DNA from: Bacteroidales bacterium
Lineage (GTDB): Bacteria; Bacteroidota; Bacteroidia; Bacteroidales; VadinHA17
Direction of reading: 5' to 3'
Assembly (NCBI GenBank): GCA_029932855.1
Contig: JAOZPG010000002.1
Span: 3,162-65,613, forward strand
Length of the DNA: 62,452 nt
Part shown: piece after piece, positions 7,801 to 55,968 of the stretch
Position numbering within the stretch: position 1 is the first letter of the stretch
How the letters are laid out: each line of letters opens with the position of its first letter
Program-made: the position numbers and the translations under genes
Notes under the pieces: generated by a model
The model's input: only the letters and a program-made list of their open reading frames with translations
What the model was told of the DNA's origin: nothing
Database searches by the model: none

Positions 7801-10800
7801 GGCGGAACTATCAACGATCTGCTTGTGAACCTTACGGGTGCAGATGAGCAGCTAACTTACTGGGTAATACCTGTTAGTAATCCTGGTCTCTGTACCGGCG
7901 ATACCTTTAATATTACAGTGACCGTCAATTCTGAACCTGTAGGTGTGAATGATACGGAAGGTGCATGCAGCAATGAGCAGCTTGCTTACGACCTGCAGAA
8001 TAATATTACTACACTGGGGAACGGGCTTACATCTACATTTATGTGGGTGGCAGCAGATAATCCCAATCTTAGCGGAGAAAGCACAGGTCCCAGGTTTACA
8101 AACACTATCAATGATGTGATAACAAACACTACAGGTGCAACTGAGACAGTTATATATACGGTTACACCAACGGGAACCAAGCTTTGTGTAGGTAAACCCT
8201 TTACTATAAGTGTGGATGTGGATCCCGAGCCCATACTTGCATCTAACCTTAACACTGTGATCTGTAGCGATGTAGAGACAGGACTGATGCTTGATGTGGA
8301 AGCAGGCTCGGTAGCTGCAGATCATTACAATCTCTTAAGTATTGATGTGGGGGCAGGACTGATAGCAGGGGCAGCGAATGTTTCTCCGGGAGTTAATATG
8401 GCTAATGATAGCCTCAGCAGGGATGTGTTTACGAATATGACAGCGGGACCGATACTGGTAATGTACGAAGTAGTGCCGGTTAGTGCCGATGACTGTGAGG
8501 GAGAAGCTAAGGTAATTATGCTGCAGGTGAACCCCGAACCTATATTGAATCCTAACCTCGATGCCATCGTATGTAGCGACGCGCCAGCCGGCATTACACT
8601 CTCGGTAGCTGCAGGTTCTTATCCTGCAGCAAGCTATGAGCTTGTTGCAGTAGATCCCGACCCGGTACTGATTGCCGGTCCGGCTAATGCATTGCCTGCA
8701 GCGGGACTTCCAATCCCGGCTATCTCGGCAGATGTGTTTACCAACCTTTCAGCTAACCAGATGGATGTTATTTATACGATAATACCTATGAGCAATGCCG
8801 GATGTTCCGGAGATACAGCATTTATTACACTGTCAGTTAATCCCGAACCGGTTCTCTTAGCTGATCTTGATACTACTGTTTGCAGTAACTCAACATCGGG
8901 AATATTGCTGGATGAGGAAGTCGGTTCGGTTGATGCATTGGACTATAACCTTACCAATATCCAGGTTGCTGCCGGATTATACGGAACGGCAGGAAATGCT
9001 ACTGTGGGCATAATGAAGCCTGCTACAGTATTGATAAATGATGCCTTTACAAATACTACTGCCGCTCCCCTGGATGTGATATATACAGTTGTGCCGGTAA
9101 GTGCCGGCGACTGCCCGGGAGATCCTGTAGATATTATATTTACCATTAATCCCAAGCCTGTGCTTGATCCCGGCCTGAACGCTACTGTTTGCAGTGGGGA
9201 GACAAGCGGAATTACCCTTGGTGTGACCGGTACTTCTGTTGCAGCGGCCAGTTATGATATAATAGCAATAAACGTTCAGGGAGGTTTGACACAGACAGGA
9301 ACAGCCACTATTGGTGCAGGACAGGCTGATAATGCAATTGCCTTTGATGCATATGAAAATCTGAGTAGCGGACCACTGCAGGTAACTTACGATGTGGTGC
9401 CTGTAAGTGCTGACGGATGCGAGGGAGACCTGCTTACCATTACTCTTACTGTTAGCCCTGAACCAATCCTGCTACCTGAATCTCCAACGGTTTGCAGCGG
9501 TGAGGGTACAGGAATAGTATTTACGGTGGCAGGAGGAAGCACGATGGCCATGAACTATAATGTTGTAAGCTTTACTCCCGATCCTGCCCTTGTTGCAGAT
9601 GCAGGGAACACTGTAACAGCTGCAGCGGATGGTCTTATGTCGAATGCAATAATTGCCGATAAGTTTGTGAACACTACTAATGCCGCCCTTTATGTTGACT
9701 ATGAAGTGGCTCCGGTAAGTCTTGGCAGCTGTATAGGTGATACTGTCTTGTATTCCGTAATGGTTAATCCCGAGCCTGTGCTCAGGGCCGACCTGGATAC
9801 CACTGTATGCAGTGATGCTGCCAACGGAATATTACTGGATGTAATTCCTGCAAGCGTAGGAGCTGCCACATATACTATTAATTCCATAAATGCTGAATTC
9901 GGACTTATAGCTAATGGTCCGGTTGCCGGGCCGGGACCATTGCAGCCGGCTACAGCTATATCGGCAGATATATATACCAATAATACTGCCGGAGCACTGA
10001 CTGTAACATACAACGTGGTTCCTGTAAGTACTGGCGGTGGATGTAACGGTCAGCCGGTGGATGTGGTGGTAAGCATTAATCCCGAGCCAATACTTGCCAA
10101 CGGACTGAATACCACTGTATGCAGTGATGAGGAGACCGGAGTTGTGTTTGATGTCAGGGCGGGAGGTGCTTCTGCTGTGGCATACAATATTACAGGCTTC
10201 CTAATGGATCCCGGCCTTACTGCTGATGCCGCTAATCTTGTAAGCGGAATAAGTATGGCTGTTGCGGACAATGCTATTCAGACCGATAAGTTTACCAATC
10301 TTACGGCATTCCCGCTGACTGTTGTTTACGATGTGGTTCCTGTTTCAGCTGATGGATGTGAAGGAAAGATGAGTCAGCTAACTGTCGTGGTTAATCCCGA
10401 GCCTATACTTACACCGGGCCTTGGCCAGGAGCTTTGTAGCGGAACGGCTACCAGCCTGCAGCTTAGTGTGCAGAATGGTGTTTCAGGGATTACTTATAAC
10501 TGGGATGCTCCCACAAATACCGGTGGCATGACAGGTGGAACGGCGGGTCCTTCGGCTTATATAACGGATACCTTTGATAACCAGACGGCTACGGCTCAGA
10601 CAGCTACATATTATGTTGTTCCTGTAAGCGGAATGGGATGTGCCGGGGATACGGTGCCTGTTGTGATAACTGTTAACCCGAATCCTTCTGCCGATATTAA
10701 CGGCGGCATGGATCCCATACCGGTGTGTGGTGGTATTGACCTTATCCTTGACGGAATGCCGGCAGGTGGTACGGGCAACTATACACACCAGTGGAGCGGA

Positions 10801-12489: not shown

Positions 12490-12500
12490 AATGATAAATG

Positions 12501-12530
12501 AACGGCCCCTGTCCTGTGATAGGGGTCGTT
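12501..12530 (+). terminator. Hairpin terminator after adhesin gene
   Basis: AACGGCCCCT and AGGGGTCGTT form a 10-bp stem with one G-U pair around a 10-base loop, 11 bases after the adhesin stop. The following T-tract is weak (TATAAGTCAT), so termination may be partial and allow read-through to the PorP/SprF gene. Confidence 0.6.
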
Positions 12531-12666
12531 TATAAGTCATAATAATGTTCATGTCTGCAGAACATAATAGGAAAAAAATCGTATCAAAGAAACGAAGAGT
12601 AGTTGATAATTATTTATATTAGTGGATTGATTGGCCCGGTGGCATTATAAATTGACCAGATACCCT

Positions 12667-13650
12667 GTGAAGAAATATATAATATTAATAGGCATATTAC
12701 TTTTTTTCAGGTCTGTCGGCTATTCACAGGATCCTCGTTTTTCTCAGTTTTATGCTAATCCTCTTTACCTGGCTCCTTCATTTGCAGGGGCTACGGAAGA
12801 GAACAGGCTTATAATGAACTACAGGAACCAGTGGCCTGCCGTCCCGGGAGTATTTGTTACTTACAGCTTTTCTTACGACAGGGCCTTCCCTGAATTTAAT
12901 TCGGGTGTTGGCGTTCTTGTTACCCACGACAGGGCAGGATCGGGGCGTCTGAGTAATACCAATATCGGCTTATTGTATTCATATGACATTCCTGTTAACA
13001 GGCTGCTGCACATAAGGCCGGGACTGACATTCAAATATACACAGACAAGCATTGATTTCTGGCGGCTTGTGTTTAACGACCAGATAACCCCCGGAGGGAC
13101 CAACCCGGGAATTGAACAGCCTCCTTTTGATAATGTTGCCGATATAGATGTCGGTACATCGGTCCTTGCATATACCGATAAGCTGTGGCTGGGCGTTACG
13201 GTAGATCATCTATTAAGGCCCAACAGGTCGCTATATGGTGAGGAAAGCAGGGTGCCGGTAAAATACTCCATATTTGGAGGGGCACAGATAATTAAAAAGG
13301 GCAGGTTGTTAAAACCTGTTGAGGAAAGCCTCTCCCTGGCCTTTAACTTTGAGGGTCAGGCACAGTTTACCCAGCTCGATTTTGGACTGTACTGGTATAA
13401 AAACCCCCTGATGTTTGGTTTCTGGTACAGGGGACTGGCAGGGTTTAATTATGGTTTTGACCGCGATGCCCTTATAGTCCTTGTTGGTTATAAAACAAAA
13501 GAGCTGCATATAGGTTACAGCTACGACTTTACTATATCAGAGCTTCTTGGCTCAACAGGGGGATCGCATGAGATATCCGTGATGTATGAATTCAAGTCCA
13601 ATAAAAAGCGTAAGCGCAAGATACACGCTATTCCCTGTCCGGAATTCTAA
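12667..13650 (+). CDS. PorP/SprF family type IX secretion system membrane protein
   Basis: Predicted 327-residue outer-membrane beta-barrel of the PorP/SprF family. Members help attach or secrete a particular large T9SS adhesin, often encoded next to it. Typical features: signal peptide MKKYIILIGILLFFRSVGYSQ, then DPRFSQFYANPLYLAPSFAGA near the mature N-terminus, then N-Y-RNQWP, and many alternating-hydrophobic strands ending in a basic tail. The frame also opens at TTG 12631 and TTG 12652, but GTG 12667 gives a compact signal peptide with the usual MKK start, so I chose it. The gene lies 177 bases after the giant adhesin and in the same direction, so this pair probably works like SprB-SprF. 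No clear ribosome-binding site is seen, which is normal in this phylum. The family call is firm; the exact start is not. Confidence 0.88.
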   Translation: MKKYIILIGILLFFRSVGYSQDPRFSQFYANPLYLAPSFAGATEENRLIMNYRNQWPAVPGVFVTYSFSYDRAFPEFNSGVGVLVTHDRAGSGRLSNTNIGLLYSYDIPVNRLLHIRPGLTFKYTQTSIDFWRLVFNDQITPGGTNPGIEQPPFDNVADIDVGTSVLAYTDKLWLGVTVDHLLRPNRSLYGEESRVPVKYSIFGGAQIIKKGRLLKPVEESLSLAFNFEGQAQFTQLDFGLYWYKNPLMFGFWYRGLAGFNYGFDRDALIVLVGYKTKELHIGYSYDFTISELLGSTGGSHEISVMYEFKSNKKRKRKIHAIPCPEF

Positions 13651-37281: not shown

Positions 37282-37824
37282 CTATTTTAAGATAAGTTGA
37301 AGGAAATATTCATCCATCCATTCTTCATTATAGAAAAGCCAGTCTTTCCTGGTTCCGCTTATCTCAAATCCGTATTTTTTGAACAGGGCAAGGCTTGCCT
37401 TATTATCGCTTGAGATATTGCAGTACAGCTGATGCAGTGAAAGTATATTTAAACTGTAATCAATAAGTATCTTCAGGGCTGTGCCTGCATATCCTTTATT
37501 TCGCATTGCTTTATCCCTGATAAGTATTCCTACGCCTGCCCTTTTGTGTATGGGGTCATAATCAAAGAGGTCTATGCTACCTATGGTGCCTGTATCTGTT
37601 CCGTCCTCAAACTCTATCATCCATCTCGCCTGTTTGGTCTGAAAAATATCGGTGCCGGAGTTTAACACAAACTCTTCGATCTTATGCCTGGAAAATGGTA
37701 ATAAAGTATTACTGAACCTCCATATTCCGGGATCGTTCTCCCAGTTATAAAGAAGATCAATGTCGTGGGGTTCAGGTGCACGCAGCCTGATACTGCCTTG
37801 TTCAAAAGAGAATGACTGCTTCAA
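37282..37824 (-). CDS. GNAT family N-acetyltransferase
   Basis: A 180-residue acetyltransferase of the RimJ/RimL or SpeG-like group, which moves acetyl from acetyl-CoA to an amine; the acceptor is unknown. The N-terminus IRLRAPEPHDIDLLYNWEND and GIWRFS, the core strand AGVGILIRDKAMRNKGYAG with the CoA-binding R/Q-x-x-G-x-G/A loop (here MRNKGYAG), and ALFKKYGFEISG support this. It is six bases after the fourth PD40 gene and shares its strand, so it may be read from the same transcript. Confidence 0.82.
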   Translation of the reverse strand: MKQSFSFEQGSIRLRAPEPHDIDLLYNWENDPGIWRFSNTLLPFSRHKIEEFVLNSGTDIFQTKQARWMIEFEDGTDTGTIGSIDLFDYDPIHKRAGVGILIRDKAMRNKGYAGTALKILIDYSLNILSLHQLYCNISSDNKASLALFKKYGFEISGTRKDWLFYNEEWMDEYFLQLILK

Positions 37825-37830
37825 TGAGTA

Positions 37831-39306
37831 TTATTGTTCTTTTTCTTTAAAATCAAAGTTCAGACCGGCATTTTTCAGTCTATAGCTTAAGCTGCCGCTT
37901 TCCTTATCAAAATGAATTGTTCCTATCTGCGTTTTTCCGTCAGCATCCATTATACGGATATCGAAACTATGATCAAATTCCAGCTTAAGGCCTTTGGTAT
38001 CTATAAGTCCTTCAACAGGTCCTGCTACGCTCTCCTCATCCTCATGAAACAGGATATGGTAGATGTCTTCCTTTCCAAGACCTTCCTTAAGTATCTTGGC
38101 AATATATCCTTCTTTCCCATTTCCCACAGGGGCATAACAGATATCATCACCCGTGGTATTTACCGGGTAGCCGAGATTTACCGGGTTGGTCCAGTTCCCG
38201 GGTTCCCCTTTGCTATAGAATACATCAAATCCTCCCATATTGTAATGAGCGTTTGAGCTGAAATATAAAATGCCTTTACAAATATTGGGATATTCTTCAG
38301 AGAATCTGGTGTTTATAAGGGGACCCAGGTTTTCTGCAGTGCCCCATGAGCCATCGCTGTTGCGCCTGGAGACATAGATGTCGAATTCACCTGCCCCGCC
38401 CCTTTTGTTACTTGAGAAATACAGGCTCTGGTTATCGTCGGAGATTGAGGCGTGACTTTCTGCCCTGACCGAATTAATATTGGTGTTCAGTGGTTCCATC
38501 TTTCCCCAGAAAGTGCCGTCAAACCTGCTAATATAAATGTCGCGGTTATCGTCTTCTCCTTTAACCAGGTATATTTCATTTTTATCATTTGAAATAGCAC
38601 AGGGTACCACGTCCCCGTCAGAGCCTACCTGTGGATTGATGTTCTCGGGTTCGCTCCATATGCCGTTTTTCTTCCTTGAGATAAATATGCCATTATAGAA
38701 CTTCAGCTCGCTCATATATGCTATCATATTCCCATCGTTGCTTATGGCAGGCCTGTAGTTTGAGACTCCCGAGTTAACCGGCTCACCCAGGTTGATAATG
38801 CTGACATTAACAGGGATATCCTTTATGATCTTGGCTTTTTCACATGCTCTTATCTCTTTCTCAACCATTTCCTGGTTAAACTTATTTTCGAAATCAGGGA
38901 TTTCAAGAAACTCCTGATATGTGTCCAGGGCTTTATCCAGCTGGTTATTTATACGATATGCATTGCCAAGATAAAAGAGTGAATATTCCGGTGCTTTTGT
39001 TTCTTTGGTAGATCGTTTCTTATATTTTTCTGTTGTGTTTGTTGATGCTTCTTTAAGAAAAGGGATGGCCTTTTCTTCCTGTCCTGGTATATTAAGGTAG
39101 CAAACACCCATCTTGAATTGAATATTACTGTTTAGCAGATCAGAACCCAGCAGTTTGTTATAGTGAAAGATGGCCTCGGTATAATCTTCGGCATAATAGA
39201 AGAAATCTCCGTCATTCAGGGCTTCTTCCTTGCTAGCTGTCTCCTGGGGCATGCCCGTAAACAGAAATATGAAGAATATAAATAAAGAAGCAAGTGTTTT
39301 TTTCAC
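37831..39306 (-). CDS. TPR-PD40 envelope protein without OmpA domain (paralogue 4)
   Basis: A 491-residue secreted protein, the last of four paralogues on the minus strand. It begins with a signal segment (MKKTLASLFIFFIFLFTG), then TPR-like helices with MGVCYLNIPGQEEKAIPFL and YRINNQLDKAL. PD40 beta-propeller repeats follow (about residues 165-400: SNDGNMIAYMS, SDDNQSLYFSSNKRG, NMGGFDVFYSKG, LGYPVNTTGDD). The C-terminal ~75 residues hold a short beta-rich segment with no OmpA motif and no membrane helix, unlike the OmpA-bearing paralogues. In T9SS organisms related OmpA-containing proteins (PorE type) anchor the machine to peptidoglycan; this one could act only through partners. The GNAT gene follows after six bases. 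No assigned function. Confidence 0.8.
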   Translation of the reverse strand: MKKTLASLFIFFIFLFTGMPQETASKEEALNDGDFFYYAEDYTEAIFHYNKLLGSDLLNSNIQFKMGVCYLNIPGQEEKAIPFLKEASTNTTEKYKKRSTKETKAPEYSLFYLGNAYRINNQLDKALDTYQEFLEIPDFENKFNQEMVEKEIRACEKAKIIKDIPVNVSIINLGEPVNSGVSNYRPAISNDGNMIAYMSELKFYNGIFISRKKNGIWSEPENINPQVGSDGDVVPCAISNDKNEIYLVKGEDDNRDIYISRFDGTFWGKMEPLNTNINSVRAESHASISDDNQSLYFSSNKRGGAGEFDIYVSRRNSDGSWGTAENLGPLINTRFSEEYPNICKGILYFSSNAHYNMGGFDVFYSKGEPGNWTNPVNLGYPVNTTGDDICYAPVGNGKEGYIAKILKEGLGKEDIYHILFHEDEESVAGPVEGLIDTKGLKLEFDHSFDIRIMDADGKTQIGTIHFDKESGSLSYRLKNAGLNFDFKEKEQ

Positions 39307-39418
39307 GTGTATGATTTTTTGTAATTATCTAATAAATTAAACAATTATAATTTGTGCAATCCTTCCTGTACTGCTCATTCTATTTTGCCAGGAACAGGCA
39401 GAGATTAAAATTAGCAAT

Positions 39419-39446
39419 AAAAGACTAAAGATAAAAGTATAAAGAT
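39419..39446. repeat. Short direct duplication upstream of paralogue 4
   Basis: AAAAGACTAAAGAT (39419-39432) is followed at once by AAAAGTATAAAGAT (39433-39446) and then TAAAAGACC, a 14-bp tandem repeat of about 2.6 copies with one- or two-base changes. It lies in the 174-base spacer between paralogues 3 and 4. I see no convincing promoter motif in that spacer. Confidence 0.5.
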
Positions 39447-39480
39447 TAAAAGACCGGATATGGAATATAATGCCTGCAGA

Positions 39481-41319
39481 TCAGAGTTTAAGTTTTTCAG
39501 GGACCGGCCTGGGATTAATCTTTAGCTGCTGCCTGTCTGTGCCCTCTATGCTGAAGCTGACACGGCGGTTATATTTACGGCCTTCACGGCAGTCTGTACC
39601 GTTGGGATTGGTGTTAAGGGCTACAGGTTCTTCTTCGCCATGGTAAGATATTATTATCCTTTCCCGCTTAATGCCGGCATTTTCAAGATAAGCTGCCACA
39701 GACAGTGCCCTTCTTTTCGATAGTTTACGGTTATATTCTGCCGGTCCCACGGAATCGGTGTGCCCGCTTAGGGAGATGTTCAGGCTGCTGATCATATTCA
39801 TTGCCCTGACGATAATATCAAGTTCCTTTTTTGCATTATCTGTGATGACTGAACTGTCGAAAGCAAATAATACCGAGTTTAAGATATACTGTGTTTCAAC
39901 AAGAGGCTGTTTTGCAGTTTTTTGTGACTCGGGACTTAGTGCCAATCTATTCTCTTTTGCTGCATGGCTGAGTACTGTTGTTTCTACGGGAGCTTTGTCA
40001 AAGCTTATCAGCTTCCTGCTTTCTTTCTGCCTCCTCGGATTTTCTGCTGAATAGAATTCCCAGTACCAGACCGATTGTATCTTGCCCGGCAGGGAATCGA
40101 AATGAGATTTTATTCCTGTAAACTCATTCTCTGCAGGAGAAAAGAAAAGATCATCATCAGTAGTATTTAAAGGATATCCGTAATTTACAACTTCAGACCA
40201 TGAACCATTCTTCTTATCGGTATGGAAGATATCATAGCCCCCCATGTTATTGTGCCCTTTAGAGCTGAATATCAGCCTGCTGCCATTATTTGAAAAGAAA
40301 GGAGTAGCTTCATCCCAGGCTGTGTTGATTATCTTTCCTGCATTTTCAGGCTGTGAGAAGGAAGCGTCTTCATTTATGGCAGCCTTATAAATGTCATATC
40401 CTCCATATCCTCCTTTCCTGTCACTTACAAACCACAGAAAATTATCAGTTGTGAAAATGGCATGTGTCTCATTTGCATCACTATTGATCCCGCTTTCAAG
40501 CCTTTGTGCCTTAGTCCACCTGCCATCTTTGTATTCACTCAGATACAGGTCGTAATCTGTTGAGTTAAGATGAGATAGCAATAACTTATCTCCTGTGGGG
40601 GATAATGAACAGACAAGGTATTTGCCGTCAGATTCTATTTCAGCAGTAATATTCAAAGGCTTTGTCCAGAGAGAGTCTTTTTTAACGGAGTAAAAGACAG
40701 CTTCATAATATTCTCTTTTTCTCATAAAAACCAGGGAGTTTCCATCTTCAGATAATACTGCACGGTAGCTTGATGTTCCTGCTTCGGAGAGATCAAGTTT
40801 TATGCTGTCGTAGTCGCTAACAGCATTTATCCTTTCACGGGCATAGATACAGCCGGCTATATGCCTGTCGGCCTCACTGCTATCCATGTTATTGTCGGTA
40901 AGCAGCTTCTTATAGCTTTTATACTTGTCTAGTGCCTTGTCGAGTTGCATATCTGTCTGTAAGGCTTCACCAAGCAATAAATATGATCTGACAGGTGAGT
41001 TTATTTCTTTAAAAGAATATTCTTTCCTGTATTTAAGGGAAGTATTTTTTACAGCTTCCTCAAGGTAAGGGATGGCCCTGGTCTTCTGGCCGGGAATATG
41101 CAGATAAGCATTGCCTGTCTTATATTGTACATTGGCATTTGAAAAGTCGTTATCAATAAGGCTGAGGTAAAGTGGAAGTGCTTCTTCAAATCTATTGTAC
41201 AACTCCAGGAATTCGGCATCATAGTATGTTTTTTCAGCATCAAACACATCTTGTGCACATACTATTCCGAAGGGCATAATAATAAGAATAACAAAAAAGT
41301 ATCTTTTTATGAATGCCAC
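39481..41319 (-). CDS. TPR-PD40-OmpA envelope protein (paralogue 3)
   Basis: A 612-residue protein: signal segment (FIKRYFFVILIIMPFGIVCAQ), TPR-like helices with YKTGNAYLHIPGQKTRAIPY, PD40 propeller repeats (about 180-400: ETHAIFTTDNFLWFVSDRKG, NMGGYDIFHTDK, YGYPLNTTDDDLFF) and a C-terminal OmpA domain (about 476-595). The last has FAFDSSVITDNAKKEL, LSGHTDSVGPAEYNRKLSKR and GRKYNRRVSF, including the Asp and Arg expected to bind peptidoglycan diaminopimelate. Unlike paralogue 2 it has no regulatory-like domain between propeller and OmpA, but a longer Lys/Ser/Thr linker. It lies 21 bases downstream of paralogue 2, so both are probably in one operon. Resembles PorE-type T9SS proteins; actual role unknown. 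Confidence 0.87.
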   Translation of the reverse strand: MAFIKRYFFVILIIMPFGIVCAQDVFDAEKTYYDAEFLELYNRFEEALPLYLSLIDNDFSNANVQYKTGNAYLHIPGQKTRAIPYLEEAVKNTSLKYRKEYSFKEINSPVRSYLLLGEALQTDMQLDKALDKYKSYKKLLTDNNMDSSEADRHIAGCIYARERINAVSDYDSIKLDLSEAGTSSYRAVLSEDGNSLVFMRKREYYEAVFYSVKKDSLWTKPLNITAEIESDGKYLVCSLSPTGDKLLLSHLNSTDYDLYLSEYKDGRWTKAQRLESGINSDANETHAIFTTDNFLWFVSDRKGGYGGYDIYKAAINEDASFSQPENAGKIINTAWDEATPFFSNNGSRLIFSSKGHNNMGGYDIFHTDKKNGSWSEVVNYGYPLNTTDDDLFFSPAENEFTGIKSHFDSLPGKIQSVWYWEFYSAENPRRQKESRKLISFDKAPVETTVLSHAAKENRLALSPESQKTAKQPLVETQYILNSVLFAFDSSVITDNAKKELDIIVRAMNMISSLNISLSGHTDSVGPAEYNRKLSKRRALSVAAYLENAGIKRERIIISYHGEEEPVALNTNPNGTDCREGRKYNRRVSFSIEGTDRQQLKINPRPVPEKLKL

Positions 41320-41340
41320 TTTTCTTCTGTTAAAAGATGA

Positions 41341-43332
41341 TTATTTCTCGATTTTCAGCTTGTCAGGCACAGCAGCATTTTCTCCCTGTATTGCCTTATT
41401 TGATGATTCAATTACCCGGAAGTCCACCCTCCTGTTAAATTTCCTTCCATCAGGAGCATCAGAACCGTTGGCATTTTTATTCCTGGCAATGAATTTAGAT
41501 TCACCAAATGCTTTAACCTGCAGGCGGCTACCGTCAATACCTTCTTTAATCAGGTAGTTAACTACGGATTTTGCACGTTTTGCGGACAGCTTATTATTAT
41601 ATGTATCCGAACCAATAGCATCTGTATGGCCGCCTACTTCAAGTACCAGGTCGGGATAGTCATTCAGTACAGCAAGAACTGTATTTAGTTTTTCTGTTTC
41701 CGTTGAGCCGATATTTGAACTGTTAAATCCGAAATAAACGGTTTTAAGTAATATCGCTTCATGCTTTGCAGGCTTGAGATCAATATTTATAACTATTTCA
41801 CCCAGCGAGTAATTATCCGGGATAACAAAAGATGTCGTGTCTGAAATGTAATCATAAGCACTTATCTCCATTTTATATTCACCAGGGATTTTTACAATTG
41901 AGAAAAAGTCTCCTCCGGGAGAATCTGCAAAGAACTGCTGGCTGCTTCCTTCTTTATCTGATTCAAACCGGATATTTACGGCTTTAGCATAAATGGGTGC
42001 TTCATCTTCCAGACTTATTTTTCCTTTTACTTCAACCGGCCTGGGATTATTATCAGAGTATATATCAAGAAGATATATGTTCTTTACTCCTTCACTTCCT
42101 TCAATGTCTGCCCTTGCCATATATCCACTATTTCCGGCCTGAAGAGGCACAAAGAAGAGATCATCATCTGAAGTGTTTATGGGGTAGCCTATATTTACAG
42201 CTTCGCCAAAACTACCGTCTTCATTGATGCTGGAATGGAAAATATCAAATCCGCCCATTCCTTCATGTCCCTGAGATGAAAAGTATAAAGAATTATTTGT
42301 TACACAAAGGAATGGTGTCTCTTCGTTAAACTGTGTGTTAATGTCGGGACCAAGATTGACCGGATCGGACCATTCTTTAGTGTCGGGATCCCTTACTGTC
42401 TTATAAATATCAAGTCCCCCATAGCCTCCGGGACGGTTGCTGGTAAAAAAGATAGTATTATCATCGGTGGCATAGGATGCATGCGATTCCCAGTATTTAG
42501 AGTTTATCTGTTTGTCCATCTCTGTTGCTGCTGTCCACTTACCGTCCACATACCTGCTGTAATATATGTTGCTGTTGAACTTATCATTCATTGTCAGAAG
42601 TAACATATTCCCGTCACTTGAAAGGTCTGTAGGATAATAATTGCCGTCAGACTTAATGTCGGGAGTAATATTAAAAGGGCTTTCCCATTTAGCATTAACA
42701 TTTTTTGAATAGAAAAGGGCGTCATAAAACTTTTGACTCGAGGTATATACCATTGTTGTTCCGTCTCTGGAGAAGACTGCGTCGGAGTCACTGTGGTCTG
42801 AGTTTATTTTATCCCCCAGGCTCTTTGCTTTATAATATATCCTGTTATTTATCATTTTCCCTGCATTTGCACAGCCTTTGATCTGCTGCTTAACAAAGTT
42901 AATGTTAACTGTATCTTCAGGTTCAAGGAGATCCAGGTATTCGGTATATTTCCGGCTTGCCTTATCAAACTGATTTTGTATATGGTATGCACTGGCCAGG
43001 AAGAAAATGGCATCTTCAGGGGCACTTACTTCTTTCAGGCTTCCCTCTTTATAGCTTCCCGTGATATTTTGGGAAGCTTTCTCGAGGTAAGGTATTGCTT
43101 TTTCTTTTTGGCCGTCTATATTCAGGTAGCACAAACCTATCTTGTAATTGATATTGGCATTGTCAGTATCCTGTTTATATACTTTCTTATAAAAACCCAG
43201 GGCATCAACATAGGCTTCATATGCAAGGAAGTATTCCCCGTCCTGAAAGGCTTCCTTTATTTCTTTTGGACTCTGGCTATATGAATAAACAGAAAGAATG
43301 ACACAGGCAATAAGTAAGAGGGTCTTTTTCAT
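41341..43332 (-). CDS. TPR-PD40-CPD-OmpA envelope protein (paralogue 2)
   Basis: A 663-residue protein with signal peptide (MKKTLLLIACVILSVYSYSQ) and TPR-like helices with YKIGLCYLNIDGQKEKAIPYL. PD40 repeats follow (WESHASYATDDNTIFFTSNR, GGLDIYKTVR, MGGFDIFHSS, IGYPINTSDDDLFF). A carboxypeptidase-regulatory-like beta domain (about 432-520, VEVKGKISLEDEAP) and an OmpA domain (about 525-645, VYFGFNSSNIGSTE, EVGGHTDAIGSDTYNNKLSAKR, GRKFNRRVDF) complete it. This is the classic PorE-like T9SS layout: the OmpA part would bind peptidoglycan and the propeller would contact the periplasmic machine. A TAAATTTG -7 box on the minus strand precedes it. It stands 122 bases below paralogue 1 and 21 above paralogue 3. 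Not proven to be PorE. Confidence 0.88.
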   Translation of the reverse strand: MKKTLLLIACVILSVYSYSQSPKEIKEAFQDGEYFLAYEAYVDALGFYKKVYKQDTDNANINYKIGLCYLNIDGQKEKAIPYLEKASQNITGSYKEGSLKEVSAPEDAIFFLASAYHIQNQFDKASRKYTEYLDLLEPEDTVNINFVKQQIKGCANAGKMINNRIYYKAKSLGDKINSDHSDSDAVFSRDGTTMVYTSSQKFYDALFYSKNVNAKWESPFNITPDIKSDGNYYPTDLSSDGNMLLLTMNDKFNSNIYYSRYVDGKWTAATEMDKQINSKYWESHASYATDDNTIFFTSNRPGGYGGLDIYKTVRDPDTKEWSDPVNLGPDINTQFNEETPFLCVTNNSLYFSSQGHEGMGGFDIFHSSINEDGSFGEAVNIGYPINTSDDDLFFVPLQAGNSGYMARADIEGSEGVKNIYLLDIYSDNNPRPVEVKGKISLEDEAPIYAKAVNIRFESDKEGSSQQFFADSPGGDFFSIVKIPGEYKMEISAYDYISDTTSFVIPDNYSLGEIVINIDLKPAKHEAILLKTVYFGFNSSNIGSTETEKLNTVLAVLNDYPDLVLEVGGHTDAIGSDTYNNKLSAKRAKSVVNYLIKEGIDGSRLQVKAFGESKFIARNKNANGSDAPDGRKFNRRVDFRVIESSNKAIQGENAAVPDKLKIEK

Positions 43333-43365
43333 AGCATTGTTATTTCGAGGGTCATAGGATTATAA

Positions 43366-43373
43366 CAAATTTA
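43366..43373 (-). promoter_or_regulatory. Candidate -7 box of PD40 paralogue 2
   Basis: On the minus strand this reads TAAATTTG, 33 bases before the ATG at 43332. It suggests that paralogues 2-3 have their own promoter, separate from paralogue 1. Confidence 0.45.
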
Positions 43374-43454
43374 ATAAATATATTGAAAGATCGTCTATTA
43401 CATTATAACAAAACGAACAAGCCGGTTTTTCATGTATCAGCTATGGCACTTTGA

Positions 43455-46340
43455 TTAATCTTCTTTTTTCTTACGCTTCCAGACAATGAAAAGGACAGAT
43501 GCTGAGGCAGCAAGTACAAGTATAAGCAGTCCTGCTTTCATTCCTGTACCCATTCCCTTGCTTTCTTTTGCTTCTTCCTGTATCAGGTCCTTGACCTTGC
43601 TAATGTCTATATCGGTTTCTGCTATTATATCTATAAGCAGGTTCATAAGGTCGGCTGTTGAATAGCCCAGCTCATCTTTATGTTCGAGGAGGTATCTTAT
43701 AAGTTCCTGAATGCTGTTTATATCTTCCTGCTCAAGATTGAGCTGCTCAAGGGCAGTTTTAAGATTACCCGGGAGAGAAGCGGAAATCATTTTTTTAAGG
43801 AATCCATTCAGGTCGGGATCTCCGTTTCCTGACATGTTGGCCAGAAGTATGGCAAGCTCTTCTTCGGTATAACCCAGTATGTCAGCATTGTCTAAAAGGA
43901 AGCTCACCAGTTCGTATGTTGAATAGATATTTTCTTTTTCAGGTTCCAGCTCTTTAAGTACTTCTTTTAATTCTCCTTCAGCCAGGGAATCGAGAACGCT
44001 TCTCATCCTTGCCAGTTCCTCATCTTCCTCAACAGCCATTTGTGCAATAGCCTCCTGCAGTTCCTCTTTTGACACCTCTACACCGATACGGAAATTAATG
44101 AATGCAATAAGTTCCTCTATATTGCTAATATTATTTTTGTCGAGCTGAAGCGTATCCAGCAGGGCTCTTAGTTCACCCGATGAATTCTTGTGCAGGTTCG
44201 TAAAGAACTGAAGCAGGTTCTTATTGTTTCTGGCTGCAGTATGCATTAAGAGGATATTTACATCAGCTTCTGTATAATCCCTGTATTTTGCCTGCTCAAG
44301 GAGGTAATTAACAAAGGACTTGCTGTCGCTTATGTTGCTGGCTTCAGGATCGGCTTCGTCAATAGTGGCTTTAAGATCTCCTTCTGCATATTTGCTGAGA
44401 CGATTTATAAATGCAATCAGTTCTTCTTCATCCTTAGTAGATACTTCAATACTGTCCTCATCAAGAGTCTCATCACTACCGGCCAGGATCACTGGCGGCA
44501 CAGGTGCAGGAACATGTATATCCATGTTCATGCTTTTTGTGTTTCCGAACTTATCAGTAAGTATGAATTTTATATTTGTTTGTCCCGGTACGGGAACATG
44601 CCTGTAAACAAATACGGAATCTGTCATCAGGAACTCTTCCGAAGAAAGCAGTGTGCTGTCTCTATATGTTTCAACAGTCAGTATGGATGCTGGTTCAACA
44701 CTGAGCTTAATATCTATCGTGTCCTGATCCATAACATATGTACTGTCCATAAGGTTCAGGTCTGCAGTAATATCTTTCAGGCTCAGGTGTGTTTCATCCA
44801 GTTCAACGATATAGCCTTCCCTGGAATTTGGCAGTGATAAATGCTGATTAAAACTTTCAAAGCCTTCTCCCTCAAAGCTGATGTCGTATTCTCCTGCTTT
44901 TAGCTCAAGGCTGTAAGCTCCTTTACTGTCGGGATTCAGTACGGCAGTTGTATCGTTCTTGCTGCTTTCAATAACATGTATATTTATATTATGGAGTATA
45001 TCGGCATTATTTATAATTCCAAGTGATACTATCCCGGTAATAAGGAACTTACGGGGATGCTCGTCAGAATATATGGCAAGCCTGAACAGGTCCTTGCCTC
45101 CGATTCCTGATTCTGAGAACATTGAATAATATGCAATGTTCCCGTCTCCTGCAGGCTGGTAGAAGAGGTCGTTATCAGGAGTGTTTATGGGATATCCCAT
45201 ATTCAGGGGAGTGCTCCACTCATTATTATCAAAAAGTGAGGAGTAAAAAATATCGTAGCCTCCAATGTTAAAATGTCCGTATGAACTAAAATACAGTGTT
45301 TTGCCATCTGCACTTATGAAAGGTGTTTCTTCATTATATGAGGTGTTGATATTCGGACCCAGGTTTACGGCAGGGCCCCATTGTCCCAGGCTGTCTTTTT
45401 CCGACCTGTAGATATCAAGTCCCCCGTAGCCGCCTTTACGGTTGCTTGTAAAATACAGTGTCTGTCCGTCTTTTGTCTGGCAGGCATGCGATTCCCAGTA
45501 TTTTGTGTTGATATTTTCATTCAGTTTTTTAACAACCTGCCATAAACCATCAACATATTCACTGGTATATATGTTGCCGTCGTAATTATCATTCTTATAC
45601 AGGTAAAGCAGCTTCCCGTCGAAAGAAAGTGATGATGAATAAAAGTCCTGGTCAATCTGAAAGTCGGGTGTGAGGTTCCTGGGGTTGGTCCATTTGCCGT
45701 TTATCTTTTGTGAAAAGAAAACGGCATCGTAGAAAGCAAGTTCCTGTGTATATACAAGAGTTTTTTCATCACCTGAAATGACGGGATTGTAATCTGAACG
45801 TTTTGTATTTATAGTTGTTCCCAGGTTTTGATAACTTAAGAATAAGGGTGTTTTCTGTACTCTTATAGCATTATTACAGGTCTCTATCTGGTGTTCAACT
45901 ATCCGTTTATCATATACTTTCTCATCAAGGTTGTTTTTGAAATACTCATATGTTTCAATGGCTTTATCAAGCATGTTATTTACCCTGTAAGCATCGCCAA
46001 GGTAAAAGTATGCATCCAGGGGGGCCCCGGTTTCACTTATGGAACGTTCTTTATAGTTGGGATTGATATCTTTTATTGCTTTTTCAAGGAACCCGATTGC
46101 CTTCTTTTTTTGTCCGGGAGTATTTAAATAGCAAATGCCTGTCCTGTAATTCAGTTTAGTGTTTTCAGGTTCCAGTTTCAGAAGTTGCAGGTAAATAGGC
46201 AGAGCCTCGTTATATTCCTCAAAAAGGAAATAGGATTCAGCTTCAAGAAACATTTCTTTTGTCTCTGCTTTTGTTTGGGCAAACAGAGGATTAGCTACAA
46301 GAAACAGGAGCAAAGGAAGAATAAAGAATATCTTTTTCAT
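43455..46340 (-). CDS. TPR-PD40 protein with fourfold helical repeat and C-terminal anchor (paralogue 1)
   Basis: A 961-residue protein. Signal peptide MKKIFFILPLLLFLVANPLFAQ, TPR-like helices (YRTGICYLNTPGQKKKAIGFL), PD40 repeats (about 170-420), a regulatory-like beta domain (about 430-510) and an Ig-like stretch (about 515-620) are followed by four tandem helical units starting near residues 653, 721, 788 and 856, each 67-68 residues. A single hydrophobic segment (about 938-957, GLLILVLAASASVLFIVW) and a basic tail (KRKKKED) close the protein, so the C-terminus would sit in the inner membrane with the bulk in the periplasm, unlike the OmpA paralogues. I do not recognise the helical repeat. 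The frame starts at 46358, but Met 46340 gives the signal peptide. The gene lies between E2 upstream and paralogue 2. Confidence 0.83.
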   Translation of the reverse strand: MKKIFFILPLLLFLVANPLFAQTKAETKEMFLEAESYFLFEEYNEALPIYLQLLKLEPENTKLNYRTGICYLNTPGQKKKAIGFLEKAIKDINPNYKERSISETGAPLDAYFYLGDAYRVNNMLDKAIETYEYFKNNLDEKVYDKRIVEHQIETCNNAIRVQKTPLFLSYQNLGTTINTKRSDYNPVISGDEKTLVYTQELAFYDAVFFSQKINGKWTNPRNLTPDFQIDQDFYSSSLSFDGKLLYLYKNDNYDGNIYTSEYVDGLWQVVKKLNENINTKYWESHACQTKDGQTLYFTSNRKGGYGGLDIYRSEKDSLGQWGPAVNLGPNINTSYNEETPFISADGKTLYFSSYGHFNIGGYDIFYSSLFDNNEWSTPLNMGYPINTPDNDLFYQPAGDGNIAYYSMFSESGIGGKDLFRLAIYSDEHPRKFLITGIVSLGIINNADILHNINIHVIESSKNDTTAVLNPDSKGAYSLELKAGEYDISFEGEGFESFNQHLSLPNSREGYIVELDETHLSLKDITADLNLMDSTYVMDQDTIDIKLSVEPASILTVETYRDSTLLSSEEFLMTDSVFVYRHVPVPGQTNIKFILTDKFGNTKSMNMDIHVPAPVPPVILAGSDETLDEDSIEVSTKDEEELIAFINRLSKYAEGDLKATIDEADPEASNISDSKSFVNYLLEQAKYRDYTEADVNILLMHTAARNNKNLLQFFTNLHKNSSGELRALLDTLQLDKNNISNIEELIAFINFRIGVEVSKEELQEAIAQMAVEEDEELARMRSVLDSLAEGELKEVLKELEPEKENIYSTYELVSFLLDNADILGYTEEELAILLANMSGNGDPDLNGFLKKMISASLPGNLKTALEQLNLEQEDINSIQELIRYLLEHKDELGYSTADLMNLLIDIIAETDIDISKVKDLIQEEAKESKGMGTGMKAGLLILVLAASASVLFIVWKRKKKED

Positions 46341-46478
46341 ATACCAGTCATTATGCATACGAAAATAAAAAATAAAACGGAAGATATGAAAATAAAATGA
46401 TGAAACCGGATATTATATACTTAAGTTGCAGCCGGACGTTAATGACACATGCCCTCGAGTGATTAAGATTACAACTTT

Positions 46479-52203: not shown

Positions 52204-53979
52204 TTAGTTTGATGAGAATATCTCCTTAATAATATGATCGTATTCTTTGTAAAGGTAATTTCTCTTTAGCTTCAATGTAGGTGACAGCTCTCCTGTGGCA
52301 GGAGTCCATTCCTTACAAACCAGCCTGAAACGTTTTATCTGCTCATGAAATGCCATTTTCTTATTTATCTCGTTCACTTCCTTCTGGTAGCGTTTTATTA
52401 CCTCAGGTATCCTTATCAGCTCTTCATTATCCCTGTATTTAACACCATGACGTGAACACCAGTTATGAAGAAATTCGAAGTTGGGCGAGATAAGGGCAGA
52501 TGCAAATTTCTCATTCTCACCTATTACCATTATCTGTTGTATAAAGAATGATTCCTTGCATTTGTTTTCAATGACCTGGGGCGCTACATATTTGCCGTTT
52601 GATAGTTTGAATATCTCTTTTTTCCTGTCAGTGATCTTCAGGTATTTATTGTCAATAAGGGTTCCTATGTCTCCGGTATGGAACCAGCCATCCTTATCTA
52701 TGGCCTCTGCTGTAAGTTCCGGTTTATTATAATAGCCCATCATAATGTTAGGTCCCTTACACAGTATCTCACCATCTTCGGCTATCTTTACTTCCACATC
52801 CTTTATCATTGGTCCCACTGTCCCTACCATGATCTCATCTGTTATCAGGTTGTTCACGGCTATTACCGGAGATGTCTCGGTGAGGCCGTATCCTTCCAGT
52901 ACCTTGATATCTGCACTCCAGAAGATTGTGGCCAGGCGGGGCTGAAGTGCTGCGCCACCTGATACTATTACATTCACGTTTCCTCCCAGGGCTTCTCTCC
53001 ATTTTGAGAATACCAGCTTATTGGCTATTTTCAGTTTCATTTTATAGAAGCCTGAGTTTTTTCCGTGCAGCTTAAATTTATGTCCCAGGTTTACAGCCCA
53101 GAAGAATATCTGTTTTTTAATCCCGTCCAGGTCCTTCCCTTTCTGAATGATCTTATCGTAAATTGTCTCCAGCAGCCTGGGTACAGTAGAGAACAGATCG
53201 GGCTTAATATCTTTGAGGTCATTTACAATGGTCCCCATGCTTTCAGCATAATAAACCGAAATGCCTTTATACTGAAAATGATAATTCAGCATCCTCTCAT
53301 AAATATGACAAAGGGGGAGGAAGCTAAGGCTTCTTGATTCGGGTCCGTGAGGATGAACTACGGAAGTGGCAATTGCATTACTCAGCAGGTTCTCGTGACT
53401 AAGCATTACACCTTTTGGATTGCCCGTTGTTCCGGATGTGTATATAAGTGTTACCAGGTCTGAAGCTTTTATGCTCTTTTTGACGTTCTCAACTTCAGGC
53501 TTATATTTTTCTGCATTCTTTCTTCCGAGCTCAACCACTTCCATCCAGTTTTTAACATCATCCAGCTTATTTATTGAATATAGCTTTTCAATGCTTTCTG
53601 CTTTATTGGCCAGGGGCTCAATCTTTGAGAAAAGGCCCTTGTCTGAGACAAAGATGATCCTGGGCTTACAGTCGTCGAGAATATATTCATATTCTTCTAT
53701 GCTTATTGTGGGGTATATGGGAACACTAACCATGCCGGCCAGGCTGATGCCCATATCTATAAAGTTCCATTCCGGCCTGTTATTGGATACCAGCGCCACC
53801 CTGTCACCCCGTTCAAGTCCCAGTGCCAGCAATCCGTAACTAAAGTTGGTGGCAAGATCGTGGTATTCAGCATGACTGTGTGTTAGCCATTTACCGTCCA
53901 CTTTTCCGGCAAGTGAAATTTCCTTATTATACTTTTCAAGGGAAAAATCCAAAAGATCAAATGTTCTTTTCACATCCAT
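52204..53979 (-). CDS. Long-chain fatty acid-CoA ligase (AMP-binding), paralogue 1
   Basis: A 591-residue adenylate-forming enzyme that activates a fatty acid with ATP and CoA to give acyl-CoA. The P-loop-like motif LIYTSGTTGNPKGVMLSH (about residues 174-191), the GYGLTETSPV motif (about 352-361) and the hinge region GWFHTGDIGTLID and ITDRKKEIFKLSNGKY are present, as is the ending LKLKRNYLYKEY. The long-chain type fits because the region before the AMP site matches FadD15/Faa-like proteins. A -7 box lies at 54036. A second ligase with similar layout lies 222 bases further up on the same strand, an apparent duplication. Confidence 0.9.
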   Translation of the reverse strand: MDVKRTFDLLDFSLEKYNKEISLAGKVDGKWLTHSHAEYHDLATNFSYGLLALGLERGDRVALVSNNRPEWNFIDMGISLAGMVSVPIYPTISIEEYEYILDDCKPRIIFVSDKGLFSKIEPLANKAESIEKLYSINKLDDVKNWMEVVELGRKNAEKYKPEVENVKKSIKASDLVTLIYTSGTTGNPKGVMLSHENLLSNAIATSVVHPHGPESRSLSFLPLCHIYERMLNYHFQYKGISVYYAESMGTIVNDLKDIKPDLFSTVPRLLETIYDKIIQKGKDLDGIKKQIFFWAVNLGHKFKLHGKNSGFYKMKLKIANKLVFSKWREALGGNVNVIVSGGAALQPRLATIFWSADIKVLEGYGLTETSPVIAVNNLITDEIMVGTVGPMIKDVEVKIAEDGEILCKGPNIMMGYYNKPELTAEAIDKDGWFHTGDIGTLIDNKYLKITDRKKEIFKLSNGKYVAPQVIENKCKESFFIQQIMVIGENEKFASALISPNFEFLHNWCSRHGVKYRDNEELIRIPEVIKRYQKEVNEINKKMAFHEQIKRFRLVCKEWTPATGELSPTLKLKRNYLYKEYDHIIKEIFSSN

Positions 53980-54035
53980 AGCTAAGTGTTTTTTGTTAGA
54001 GTTATAAGTTTAGTCTTTGTTCATTTTTGTTGGCG

Positions 54036-54043
54036 CAAAGATA
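54036..54043 (-). promoter_or_regulatory. -7 box of acyl-CoA ligase 1
   Basis: On the minus strand this reads TATCTTTG, an exact TAnnTTTG match, 56 bases before the ATG at 53979. The -33 TTTG is not clear. Confidence 0.5.
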
Positions 54044-54201
54044 TAAATTTCCTAAAGAATCTTCGACCCGGATAATATCATTGATTAATTGTCCTTTCCT
54101 GCAATTCATAAGTTACAGATAAACAGACAGATAGCAGAGATATGTGTAAAACCGGAATTCGACTGCAGGATTGAGGAGCTTAGCAGCTGTAAGGCCTGTC
54201 T

Positions 54202-55968
54202 TTAAGCATCGTAGATAGACTGAATATGATCTTTGTATTTCTTAAGTATGAAATTCCTTCTTAATTTCATGCTGGGCGACAGTTCACCACTTATAACCGA
54301 CCAGTCATTATTAACGATACGGAAGCGTTTTATCTGTTCGCAGGAATCAAGAGAACGGTTTATTTTATTTATCTCATTTTCTATCTCCCTGATAACCTGT
54401 GGTAGTTCAATAAGTTTTTTCCTGTCTGTCGTTTGTATCTTATGAATCGGCTTTATCCGCTTGAAAAGGGCATCAAAATCGGGGATCACCAGGGCTCCTG
54501 CAAACTTTTCTCCTTCACCTACCACCATAAACTGGTTTATCAGTTCCGATTCCCTGAACCTGCTTTCAATAGATTGAGGCGCTATATATTTACCGTAAGA
54601 AGTCTTGAAAAGTTCTTTTCGTCGTCCTTCGATAAAGAGGAATCCATTTGAAAAAAAACCAAGATCGCCTGTGTGGAACCAACCTTCACGGTCTATGGTT
54701 TCCTTTGTGAGCCTGTCTTCCATATAATAACCCGGGGTGACATTCGGACCCCTTACGAGTATTTCTTCATTATCCGAGATCTTAAGCTCAATCCCCGGTA
54801 TAAGCGGTCCCACCGAGCCTATATATTTTTCTTCGCTACGATTAAGTGAAATAAGCGGGGAGGTTTCGGTAAGACCGTATCCCTGATATACAGGAAGTCC
54901 TGCTGTCCAGAAAAATTTCTCTACCCCAGGTGCCAGTCGCGCTCCTCCGCAACCAATAAATTTTATCTTTCCTCCAAGCAGTTTTTTTACTTTTCTGAAA
55001 ACAAGAAGTCTTAAAAAAAATCTTTTTATCCTGAATGAGAAACGGGCTTTGTGGTCATGGGGATATTTATTAAAAAGCTCTACTGACTTTTTAAATATGA
55101 ACTTCCTGAAGCCCTTTAATTTTCTTCCCCCGGAAATATAATAGCTTCTTATTTTCTCTAATACACGGGGAACGGCAGTAAATCCATGCGGACTGAGTTC
55201 TGAGAGGTCGTTCATGATAGAGGAAATATCTGCAGAATAATAAATACTGGAGCCTGAATACTGGAACTGGTAATTTGATGTACGTTCGTATATATGGCTT
55301 AAAGGAAGGAAGCTTAAAACCTTGTCTTTATAGCCCAGCGGCTGTATTGATGAAGCAGTGATAAGGTTGCTTACCAGGTTCCTGTGTGTAAGTATTACCC
55401 CTTTATGATTTCCTGTTGTTCCAGATGTATATATTAATGTAACAGTATCTTCTTCCCTAATAGATCCTTCTATAGTTTTAAGTTTTTCCCTGAGTAGCTT
55501 TTGATTTTCTTTTCCTGCAGAGATCAGTTCTTTCCAGCAGGGAACATCTTTTACGGGACTGCAGGAGAATGTCCCTTTTAGTCCCGGCAGGCGATCCAGT
55601 ACGGGCTTTAGTCTTTTATATATGCTGGTGTCGGAGATAAAAATATAGCTGACATCCGCCTGCCCAAGGATATATTCAAATGAGTCCTCACTTATTGTGG
55701 GGTAAACAGGAACATGTATTATGCCTGCCCGGGCAAGGCCTATATCAATAAAGTTCCATTCTGGCATATTGGAAGAGCATATGGTGGCAACCTTATCCCC
55801 CTTTTTTAGTCCCAGGTTTAGAAAACCCATTGCTATCCAGATGGAATAATCAAGATATTCTTTAGTGGAGAAAGACTTCCATTTCCCGTCGGTCTTTCTT
55901 GAAAAGATATCATCACGGGGATGTTCCCTATGGCAATGTTCCGGTATGTCAAATGTTCTGAAAACCAA
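54202..55968 (-). CDS. Long-chain fatty acid-CoA ligase (AMP-binding), paralogue 2
   Basis: A 588-residue paralogue of the ligase at 52204, transcribed the same way, with LIYTSGTTGNHKGVILTHRN (AMP-binding), GYGLTETSPLISLN, GWFHTGDLGFFSNG and IEGRRKELFKTSYGKYIAP. Sequence identity with paralogue 1 is moderate, the lengths match, and the order of blocks is the same, so an old tandem duplication followed by divergence is likely. Substrate range may differ. The central region is more basic (ARFSFRIKRFFLRLLVFRK) than in paralogue 1. alaS is upstream with a 130-base spacer. No clear promoter was recognised there. Confidence 0.9.
   Translation of the reverse strand: MVFRTFDIPEHCHREHPRDDIFSRKTDGKWKSFSTKEYLDYSIWIAMGFLNLGLKKGDKVATICSSNMPEWNFIDIGLARAGIIHVPVYPTISEDSFEYILGQADVSYIFISDTSIYKRLKPVLDRLPGLKGTFSCSPVKDVPCWKELISAGKENQKLLREKLKTIEGSIREEDTVTLIYTSGTTGNHKGVILTHRNLVSNLITASSIQPLGYKDKVLSFLPLSHIYERTSNYQFQYSGSSIYYSADISSIMNDLSELSPHGFTAVPRVLEKIRSYYISGGRKLKGFRKFIFKKSVELFNKYPHDHKARFSFRIKRFFLRLLVFRKVKKLLGGKIKFIGCGGARLAPGVEKFFWTAGLPVYQGYGLTETSPLISLNRSEEKYIGSVGPLIPGIELKISDNEEILVRGPNVTPGYYMEDRLTKETIDREGWFHTGDLGFFSNGFLFIEGRRKELFKTSYGKYIAPQSIESRFRESELINQFMVVGEGEKFAGALVIPDFDALFKRIKPIHKIQTTDRKKLIELPQVIREIENEINKINRSLDSCEQIKRFRIVNNDWSVISGELSPSMKLRRNFILKKYKDHIQSIYDA

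Follow-up and report, generated by a model that had tools for sequence, protein, structure and literature searches.

The window analyzed here, a 62,452-nt stretch of contig JAOZPG010000002.1 (positions 3,162-65,613; assembly GCA_029932855.1, Bacteroidales bacterium, VadinHA17), contains four tandem open reading frames on the minus strand, referred to as g1 to g4, which have a signal peptide, a TPR segment, and a PD40 propeller in common and differ at their C-termini. An acetyltransferase gene lies beyond g4:

43455-46340, minus strand: g1, TPR-PD40 protein with a helical stalk and a C-terminal transmembrane anchor, 961 aa (ORF, domains, orthologue alignment)
41341-43332, minus strand: g2, TPR-PD40-OmpA protein, 663 aa (ORF, Pfam, alignment)
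39481-41319, minus strand: g3, TPR-PD40-OmpA protein, 612 aa, GTG start (ORF, Pfam, alignment)
37831-39306, minus strand: g4, TPR-PD40 protein with a short C-terminal tail, 491 aa, GTG start (ORF, Pfam, model)
37282-37824, minus strand: GNAT acetyltransferase, an ancestral neighbour 6 nt after g4 (ORF, domain, comparison with relatives)

The length of g1 is counted from its MKK start; the longest possible ORF would begin at 46358. Intergenic gaps measure 122 nt (g1-g2), 21 nt (g2-g3), 174 nt (g3-g4), and 6 nt (g4-GNAT). The original prediction had described four paralogues with a shared signal peptide, TPR segment, and PD40 propeller and with different C-termini, the second and third genes being separated by 21 bases; ORFs, Pfam matches, head alignment, and the measured gap confirm both points. 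A scan of the genome's contigs with a single protein returned one locus. By eye, a Gln directly follows the apparent signal peptide in all four proteins (window 37831-46340), as is common among exported Bacteroidota proteins. Elsewhere in the window, two tandem acyl-CoA ligase-like genes occupy 52204-55968.

The heads, about 400 residues each, align throughout. Those of g2 to g4 are 37-44% identical to the head of g1, far beyond chance, and the mean column identity of the four-way alignment is 61%. PD40 exceeds the Pfam cut-off in all four proteins, and TPR models pass theirs in g1 and, barely, g4 only. The TPR score of g2 is below the cut-off and no TPR model is listed for g3 at E<=0.01, so that the TPR part of these two proteins rests on the head alignment. 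The core motif previously written as C/A-YLN-(x)-PGQ is indeed common to the heads, but this form is too narrow, as g2 has DGQ and g3 YLH; [CA]-Y-L-[NH]-x-[PD]-G-Q describes all four.

In a predicted structure of g4 (mean pLDDT 71.4), a TPR segment is followed by a propeller. Foldseek placed TolB at the top of its list for this model, with TM-scores of about 0.33, and the best VIA-align hit (Z 18.4, rmsd 3.8, 240 aligned) was a GH62 enzyme, with rows for GH43, GH62, and GH159 tied. GH43 and GH62 propellers are five-bladed. As modelled, the PD40 propeller resembles five-bladed folds, and the PorE propeller is likewise described as five-bladed in PMC7192894. Fold likeness to other propellers gives no function.

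The most elaborate architecture is that of g1:

45846-46274, minus strand: TPR segment, directly after the signal peptide (Pfam, sequence, model)
45066-45845, minus strand: PD40 beta-propeller (Pfam, model)
44751-45053, minus strand: beta-rich segment, carboxypeptidase-regulatory-like (sub-threshold Pfam, model)
44505-44738, minus strand: Ig-like segment (conserved in orthologues; model pLDDT mostly below 40)
43614-44423, minus strand: four helical repeats of 66-69 aa each (repeat comparison, orthologue alignment)
43458-43553, minus strand: transmembrane helix and K/R-rich tail (orthologue alignment, model)

Two modules proposed earlier for this protein, a fourfold helical repeat and a membrane anchor, are well supported. 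The repeat units (69, 66, 68, and 67 aa) match one another with pairwise z of 5.9-15.7 against shuffled units, and the transmembrane tail is present in 27/27 aligned orthologues (27 loci), which were drawn from 32 transmembrane-labelled tree rows and hence partly chosen by that label; the transmembrane-labelled L045, L060, L064, L066, and L080 and the shortened ORF L069_8131 lie outside the alignment. The proposed regulatory-like domain is found only at a sub-threshold Pfam score (21.6 bits, cut-off 32.2), with strands modelled at moderate confidence, and the Ig-like segment is conserved but poorly modelled (mean pLDDT of the g1 model, 58.9). Orthologues of g1 are known from the family to which the window belongs as well as from further families of its order, and among those aligned the helical region ranges from absent to longer than in the window. 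From its sequence, the anchor looks like an inner-membrane type. In one orthologue (L052:5925-9023), the helical repeats contain a sub-threshold EF-hand match (E 0.0014).

OmpA exceeds the Pfam cut-off in g2 and g3, and neither g1 nor g4 has an OmpA domain:

41464-41736, minus strand: g2 OmpA domain with D-x7-N-x6-R (Pfam, residue pattern)
39601-39870, minus strand: g3 OmpA domain with D-x7-N-x6-R (Pfam, residue pattern)
37834-38040, minus strand: g4 tail, strands predicted at low confidence (orthologue comparison, model)

The residue spacing in g2 and g3 equals that of Asp576, Asn584, and Arg591 of PorE, which bind the peptidoglycan stem according to PMC7192894. The pattern is present in 55 of 66 OmpA-type members, g2 and g3 included, and the 11 members without it include some broken off at contig ends. 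The OmpA end assigned earlier to g3 was recovered; for g2, the OmpA part of the assignment holds, but the regulatory-like domain placed before it is absent from the Pfam list at E<=0.01. The tail of g4 had been taken for nothing recognisable, and in fact its roughly 70 residues resemble the tail of close orthologues. The protein appears to be a short soluble form.

The array is widely retained among relatives. A match to g1 at E<=1e-20 is found in 57 of 60 related genomes, a count that includes matches to the common head. In a sample of the order, the g1 profile matched in 156/247 genomes (at most three candidates scored per genome). In a sample of the phylum, it matched at E<=1e-60 in 23/296 genomes (at most two candidates scored per genome), and none of the matches listed there from outside the order reaches beyond column 569 of the 951 in the profile. 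Array loci, defined by at least two head genes, were mapped in 51 cases. The usual content in relatives is a g1-type gene, one or two OmpA types, a short type, and a SPOR-tailed type, this frequent fifth member being missing from the window; in another lineage, the array combines g1-type, short, SPOR, and OmpA-plus-SPOR genes. The SPOR labels rest partly on a motif; of the 23 SPOR-type members, 8 have Pfam SPOR among their matches at E<=0.01. Most genomes mapped carry the array at one chromosomal site, upstream of the GNAT gene, with ordered content over many families. Partial arrays exist, one with g1-type and SPOR genes only (L068) and one without a g1-type gene (L119), so no fixed set is conserved. 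The array is a real, old, modular locus, and its persistence at one chromosomal position in relatives gives it the look of an ancient toolkit, presumably for fastening parts of the envelope. Recurrence in other Bacteroidota, which the original prediction proposed as a check, is thus seen in the 51 loci, with variable content; the absence of conservation in close relatives that it named as the opposing outcome did not come true.

The GNAT gene is found directly next to the array in 41 of the 51 loci. In the remaining ten, the array runs to a contig end (L040, L042, L061, L062, L079, and L080), is followed by another gene (L060, L120, and L125), or is followed by a fragment and then GNAT (L041). 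This fragment, a 114-aa ORF between the short gene and GNAT (L041:13861-14205), corresponds to the start of a TPR-PD40 head and is perhaps the remnant of a further paralogue. At another locus, two more array-type genes lie beyond GNAT (L121:9167-13766), as if the array had been partly duplicated across it. The median distance from the last array gene to GNAT is -4 nt for SPOR (18 loci), -1 for short (10), and +8 for OmpA-SPOR members (12), short distances which indicate that GNAT is probably co-transcribed with the array; in the window, co-transcription is possible. A GNAT homologue is also present in 19 of 21 genomes chosen for a weak or missing g1 match. Of 19 sites fetched, 12 have RecR no more than three genes away from GNAT and lack any array gene in the fetched sequence, and the other seven have no RecR nearby. 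The proposal that GNAT belongs to the array is weakened, because other genomes have it at a corresponding site where the array is lacking, and GNAT is not counted in the set. Its six-base distance stands as first noted, and in relatives, too, it follows the array closely.

The distribution of C-terminal modules was compared with the phylogeny of the heads. For the five C-terminal labels, a tree of 126 heads requires 12 changes, compared to 72.9 when shuffled, and a tree of 182 heads (56 added, 177 labelled) requires 14, compared to 103.3, with three changes over 43 rows for the transmembrane label; both are quick trees without bootstrap and with long-branch warnings, in which near-copies make labels cluster. 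The heads left unlabelled in the larger tree are L042_16423 and L079_10040 (contig ends), L128_3930 (cut), and L116_11571 and L126_13077 (unclassified). In the smaller tree, starred branches unite the 31 g1 rows, the 24 SPOR rows, the 15 g3-type rows, and two groups of short members with 12 and 15 rows, and g2-type rows are split over several branches, the largest at support 90. The small number of changes relative to shuffles indicates that the feet largely stay with their orthologue groups. That feet can move is indicated by L046_8628 (L046:8628-10517), an apparent natural tail swap in which a head of the g2 clade carries a SPOR-type tail. The head trees support the earlier idea of one propeller head copied and fitted to different attachment points.

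Sequences resembling promoters are found within the arrays. We take TAnnTTTG to be the Bacteroidota -7 element; among the four genes of the window, this box occurs upstream of g2 only:

43366-43373, minus strand: TAAATTTG, possible Bacteroidota -7 box upstream of g2 (motif scan)

A TTG was not found 17-23 nt before this box. Over the arrays, TAnnTTTG lies within 160 nt upstream of 20/45 OmpA, 15/43 short, and 13/25 SPOR members, compared to about 10% in mononucleotide shuffles. It is rarer upstream of g1-type genes (8/42), and its frequency upstream of OmpA-SPOR genes (2/20) is not above shuffles. The arrays may have internal promoters, and the excess over shuffles allows for separate expression of their members.

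The relation of the array to the type IX secretion system (T9SS) was assessed at the level of the order. SprA is present in 233/247 genomes; two of the 14 without it have an array relative, both being 82% complete (Fisher p 1.7e-4). The median number of PorP-like genes is 7 in 55 families with an array relative (E<=1e-90) and 1 in 39 families without, and this number correlates with the array relative (Spearman 0.78; 0.76 after genome size), in a test that uses one genome per family (118 of 247), in which a count of 9 means at least 9, and whose statistics ignore kinship. Because it scores best matches to a profile holding the common head, other PorE-like genes are also detected. In the window itself, a gene of this type is found about 24 kb from the array:

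12631-13650, plus strand: PorP/SprF-type gene, candidate partner (profile match 223 bits, homologue searches)

Within the same region (256-13650), it is preceded by a 4077-aa ORF with a weak type-B T9SS match at its C-terminus (29.5 bits, cut-off 35). Judging by these features, the two genes probably encode a giant adhesin with its carrier. The search for this PorP-like protein covered 33 array genomes of 11 families (19 of the 33 belonging to the window's own family); 32 of them encode a homologue at 46-72% identity, the exception being G006. In a comparison set of 33 genomes that have SprA but lack the array, each from a different family, eight match it at E<=1e-40, none above 40% identity. 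Array and homologue are on separate contigs in 26 of the 32 genomes, some with long contigs; the homologue shares the array's contig at 24-30 kb in the window genome, G007, G012, and G013, and at a greater distance in G525. Within the stretches fetched for the 51 array loci, only L060 (genome G059) has a PorP-like gene next to the array; there, the homologue is directly beside the g1-type gene in convergent orientation, on the opposite strand. This region (L060:8712-19900) comprises an array of short and g1-type genes, the PorP-like gene, and then a giant ORF, 2179 aa or longer, that ends in a weak type-B match (22.2 bits, cut-off 35). Coordinates suggest that a PorP-like gene is beside the array in G560 as well, of the same genus as L060, and not in G466 of the same family. 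In the window genome, none of the six PorP-like genes adjoins the array or other PorE-like genes. Shared ancestry may explain part of both the PorP number and the homologue co-occurrence.

In Flavobacterium johnsoniae, SprF is joined to the moving gliding track through a C-terminal Cys-x-Cys (PMC12635249), and it has been suggested that PorE-like proteins retain those type-B proteins that do not move (PMC9143113, PMC12618676). None of the six PorP-like proteins of the window genome has a C-terminal Cys-x-Cys, which fits static anchoring. Elsewhere in the genome, a possible link to gliding is a GldJ-like gene that scores just below its cut-off (G000:C4:79153-80616; score 439.7, cut-off 458.2) and follows a PorP-like gene by about 180 nt.

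Taken together, we consider it moderately probable that the array encodes periplasmic tethers of the PorE type, in which a common head is joined to various anchors, and that these serve PorP/SprF-type T9SS surface complexes. The heads would all bind one class of envelope partner, most likely barrels of the PorP/SprF type that carry type-B T9SS adhesins, and would do so from the periplasm, in the manner of PorE with PorP. The feet would fasten this partner either to peptidoglycan, through OmpA, or to the inner membrane, through the g1 anchor. By sequence, the foot of g1 is a transmembrane helix that looks like an inner-membrane anchor, carried on a stalk whose length varies, g4 is a short soluble form, and relatives add SPOR feet. 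The PorP-like gene at 12631-13650, behind the giant ORF, is the first candidate partner. Against the model, TPR-PD40 heads serve binding in general, and pure tethering leaves the anchorless short form, g4, unexplained. In a bolder version, which we regard as rather doubtful, the products form a PorE-derived hetero-oligomeric scaffold, whose equal heads would make up one body on a PorP-type barrel and whose feet would hold on to the inner membrane, to cross-linked peptidoglycan through OmpA, and, among relatives, to glycan through SPOR, linking a giant adhesin through all layers of the envelope.

Other explanations compete with the tether model. In an unlikely one, g1 to g4 together build a single trans-periplasmic scaffold from the inner membrane to peptidoglycan that has no direct part in T9SS or PorP anchoring and acts, for example, in envelope stability or division. 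Close gene spacing, joint conservation, and complementary feet, with SPOR feet in relatives, would agree with such an assembly, as would the reported need for CHU_0125, a TPR-PD40-OmpA protein, in outer-membrane integrity (PMC5891637). However, the partial arrays show that no fixed set is conserved, the promoter-like boxes allow separate expression, and the PorP co-occurrence would be left unexplained. Less likely again are independent, interchangeable PorE-like adaptors, each with its own partner, whose tandem arrangement reflects duplication only. The more than twenty PorE homologues of F. johnsoniae (reported in PMC7192894), the tail swap in one genome (L046_8628), and the variable array content are in line with this possibility, yet ordered content at one site over many families, instead of scattering, and a link between module and head that is far from random argue against it. 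That the propellers act as sensors, relaying a signal from the envelope to several compartments, is very unlikely: this reading draws on the propeller fold only, with the best alignments of the g4 model to glycan-active five-bladed enzymes, whereas no signalling domain is listed for g1 to g4 (for g2 and g3, among the best 25 NCBIfam matches), only a few K/R-rich residues follow the transmembrane helix of g1, and the flanking genes scanned in the window include no regulator.

For PorE-like genes, which are reportedly numerous in some Bacteroidota (PMC7192894), the array offers a defined set in which to ask what the copies do, and specifically whether the foot decides at which layer of the envelope a common docking head is placed. 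Head and foot are matched over many families, one member is seemingly anchored in the inner membrane, and a candidate partner is named in the same window. If the model is correct, static anchoring of T9SS surface proteins would extend beyond peptidoglycan.

Searches of the open literature on PorE, PorE-like, and TPR/PD40/OmpA proteins (titles and starts of abstracts) did not find such an array described, and nothing was found there on the combination of PD40, SPOR, and OmpA. The closest profiles in NCBIfam are PorE and CHU_0125, the first and second matches for all four proteins. Scores for g1 to g4 are 130.2, 238.2, 184.1, and 150.4 bits with PorE (NF052230, cut-off 600) and 158.0, 250.1, 193.5, and 146.4 bits with CHU_0125 (NF053607, cut-off 620). 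Despite this ranking, it is barely credible that the array is the organism's own T9SS PorE anchor in diverged form, and its identity with PorE was rejected, since a true PorE is encoded elsewhere (G000:C43) at 702.1 bits, above the cut-off, and the array genes fall far below it. The genome also encodes an OmpA-plus-SPOR protein on contig C7 and two more OmpA forms as further PorE-like members. The view that the array is related to PorE and distinct from it thus proved correct.

PorE (PG1058/PGN_1296) resembles the array in its succession of TPR segment, five-bladed propeller, and OmpA domain; its regulatory-like domain has a counterpart below threshold in g1. A TPR segment followed by a beta-propeller is found in g1 to g4 (with the TPR sub-threshold in g2 and by alignment in g3), g2 matches the PorE model over nearly its full length, and g2 and g3 hold the peptidoglycan-binding residues. 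In contrast to PorE, g1 ends in a transmembrane anchor and g4 is without an anchor. By eye, none of the four has a convincing lipobox, another PorE feature, or a Cys at the expected cleavage site; an early LIAC in g2 is probably too close to the start. CHU_0125 of Cytophaga hutchinsonii has the TPR-PD40-OmpA arrangement of g2 and g3, but it is described as a single gene rather than as an array with different feet.

TolB-Pal resembles the array in pairing a periplasmic PD40 propeller with an OmpA-type peptidoglycan domain. Unlike in TolB-Pal, head and OmpA domain are on one chain in the array, and VIA-align ranks five-bladed enzymes first; the TolB model (TIGR02800) scores 16.4 bits in g4 (cut-off 343.15) and is absent from the full list for g1. 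PorE binds both PorP and peptidoglycan, and the porE-like, porP-like, and type-B operons of F. johnsoniae, in which several porE-like genes adjoin porP-like genes (PMC9143113, PMC12618676), are like the array in that PorE-like proteins are multiplied where several PorP-like barrels exist. In comparison, the array of the window genome is without an adjacent porP-like gene and includes transmembrane and soluble forms, to which relatives add SPOR-tailed ones.
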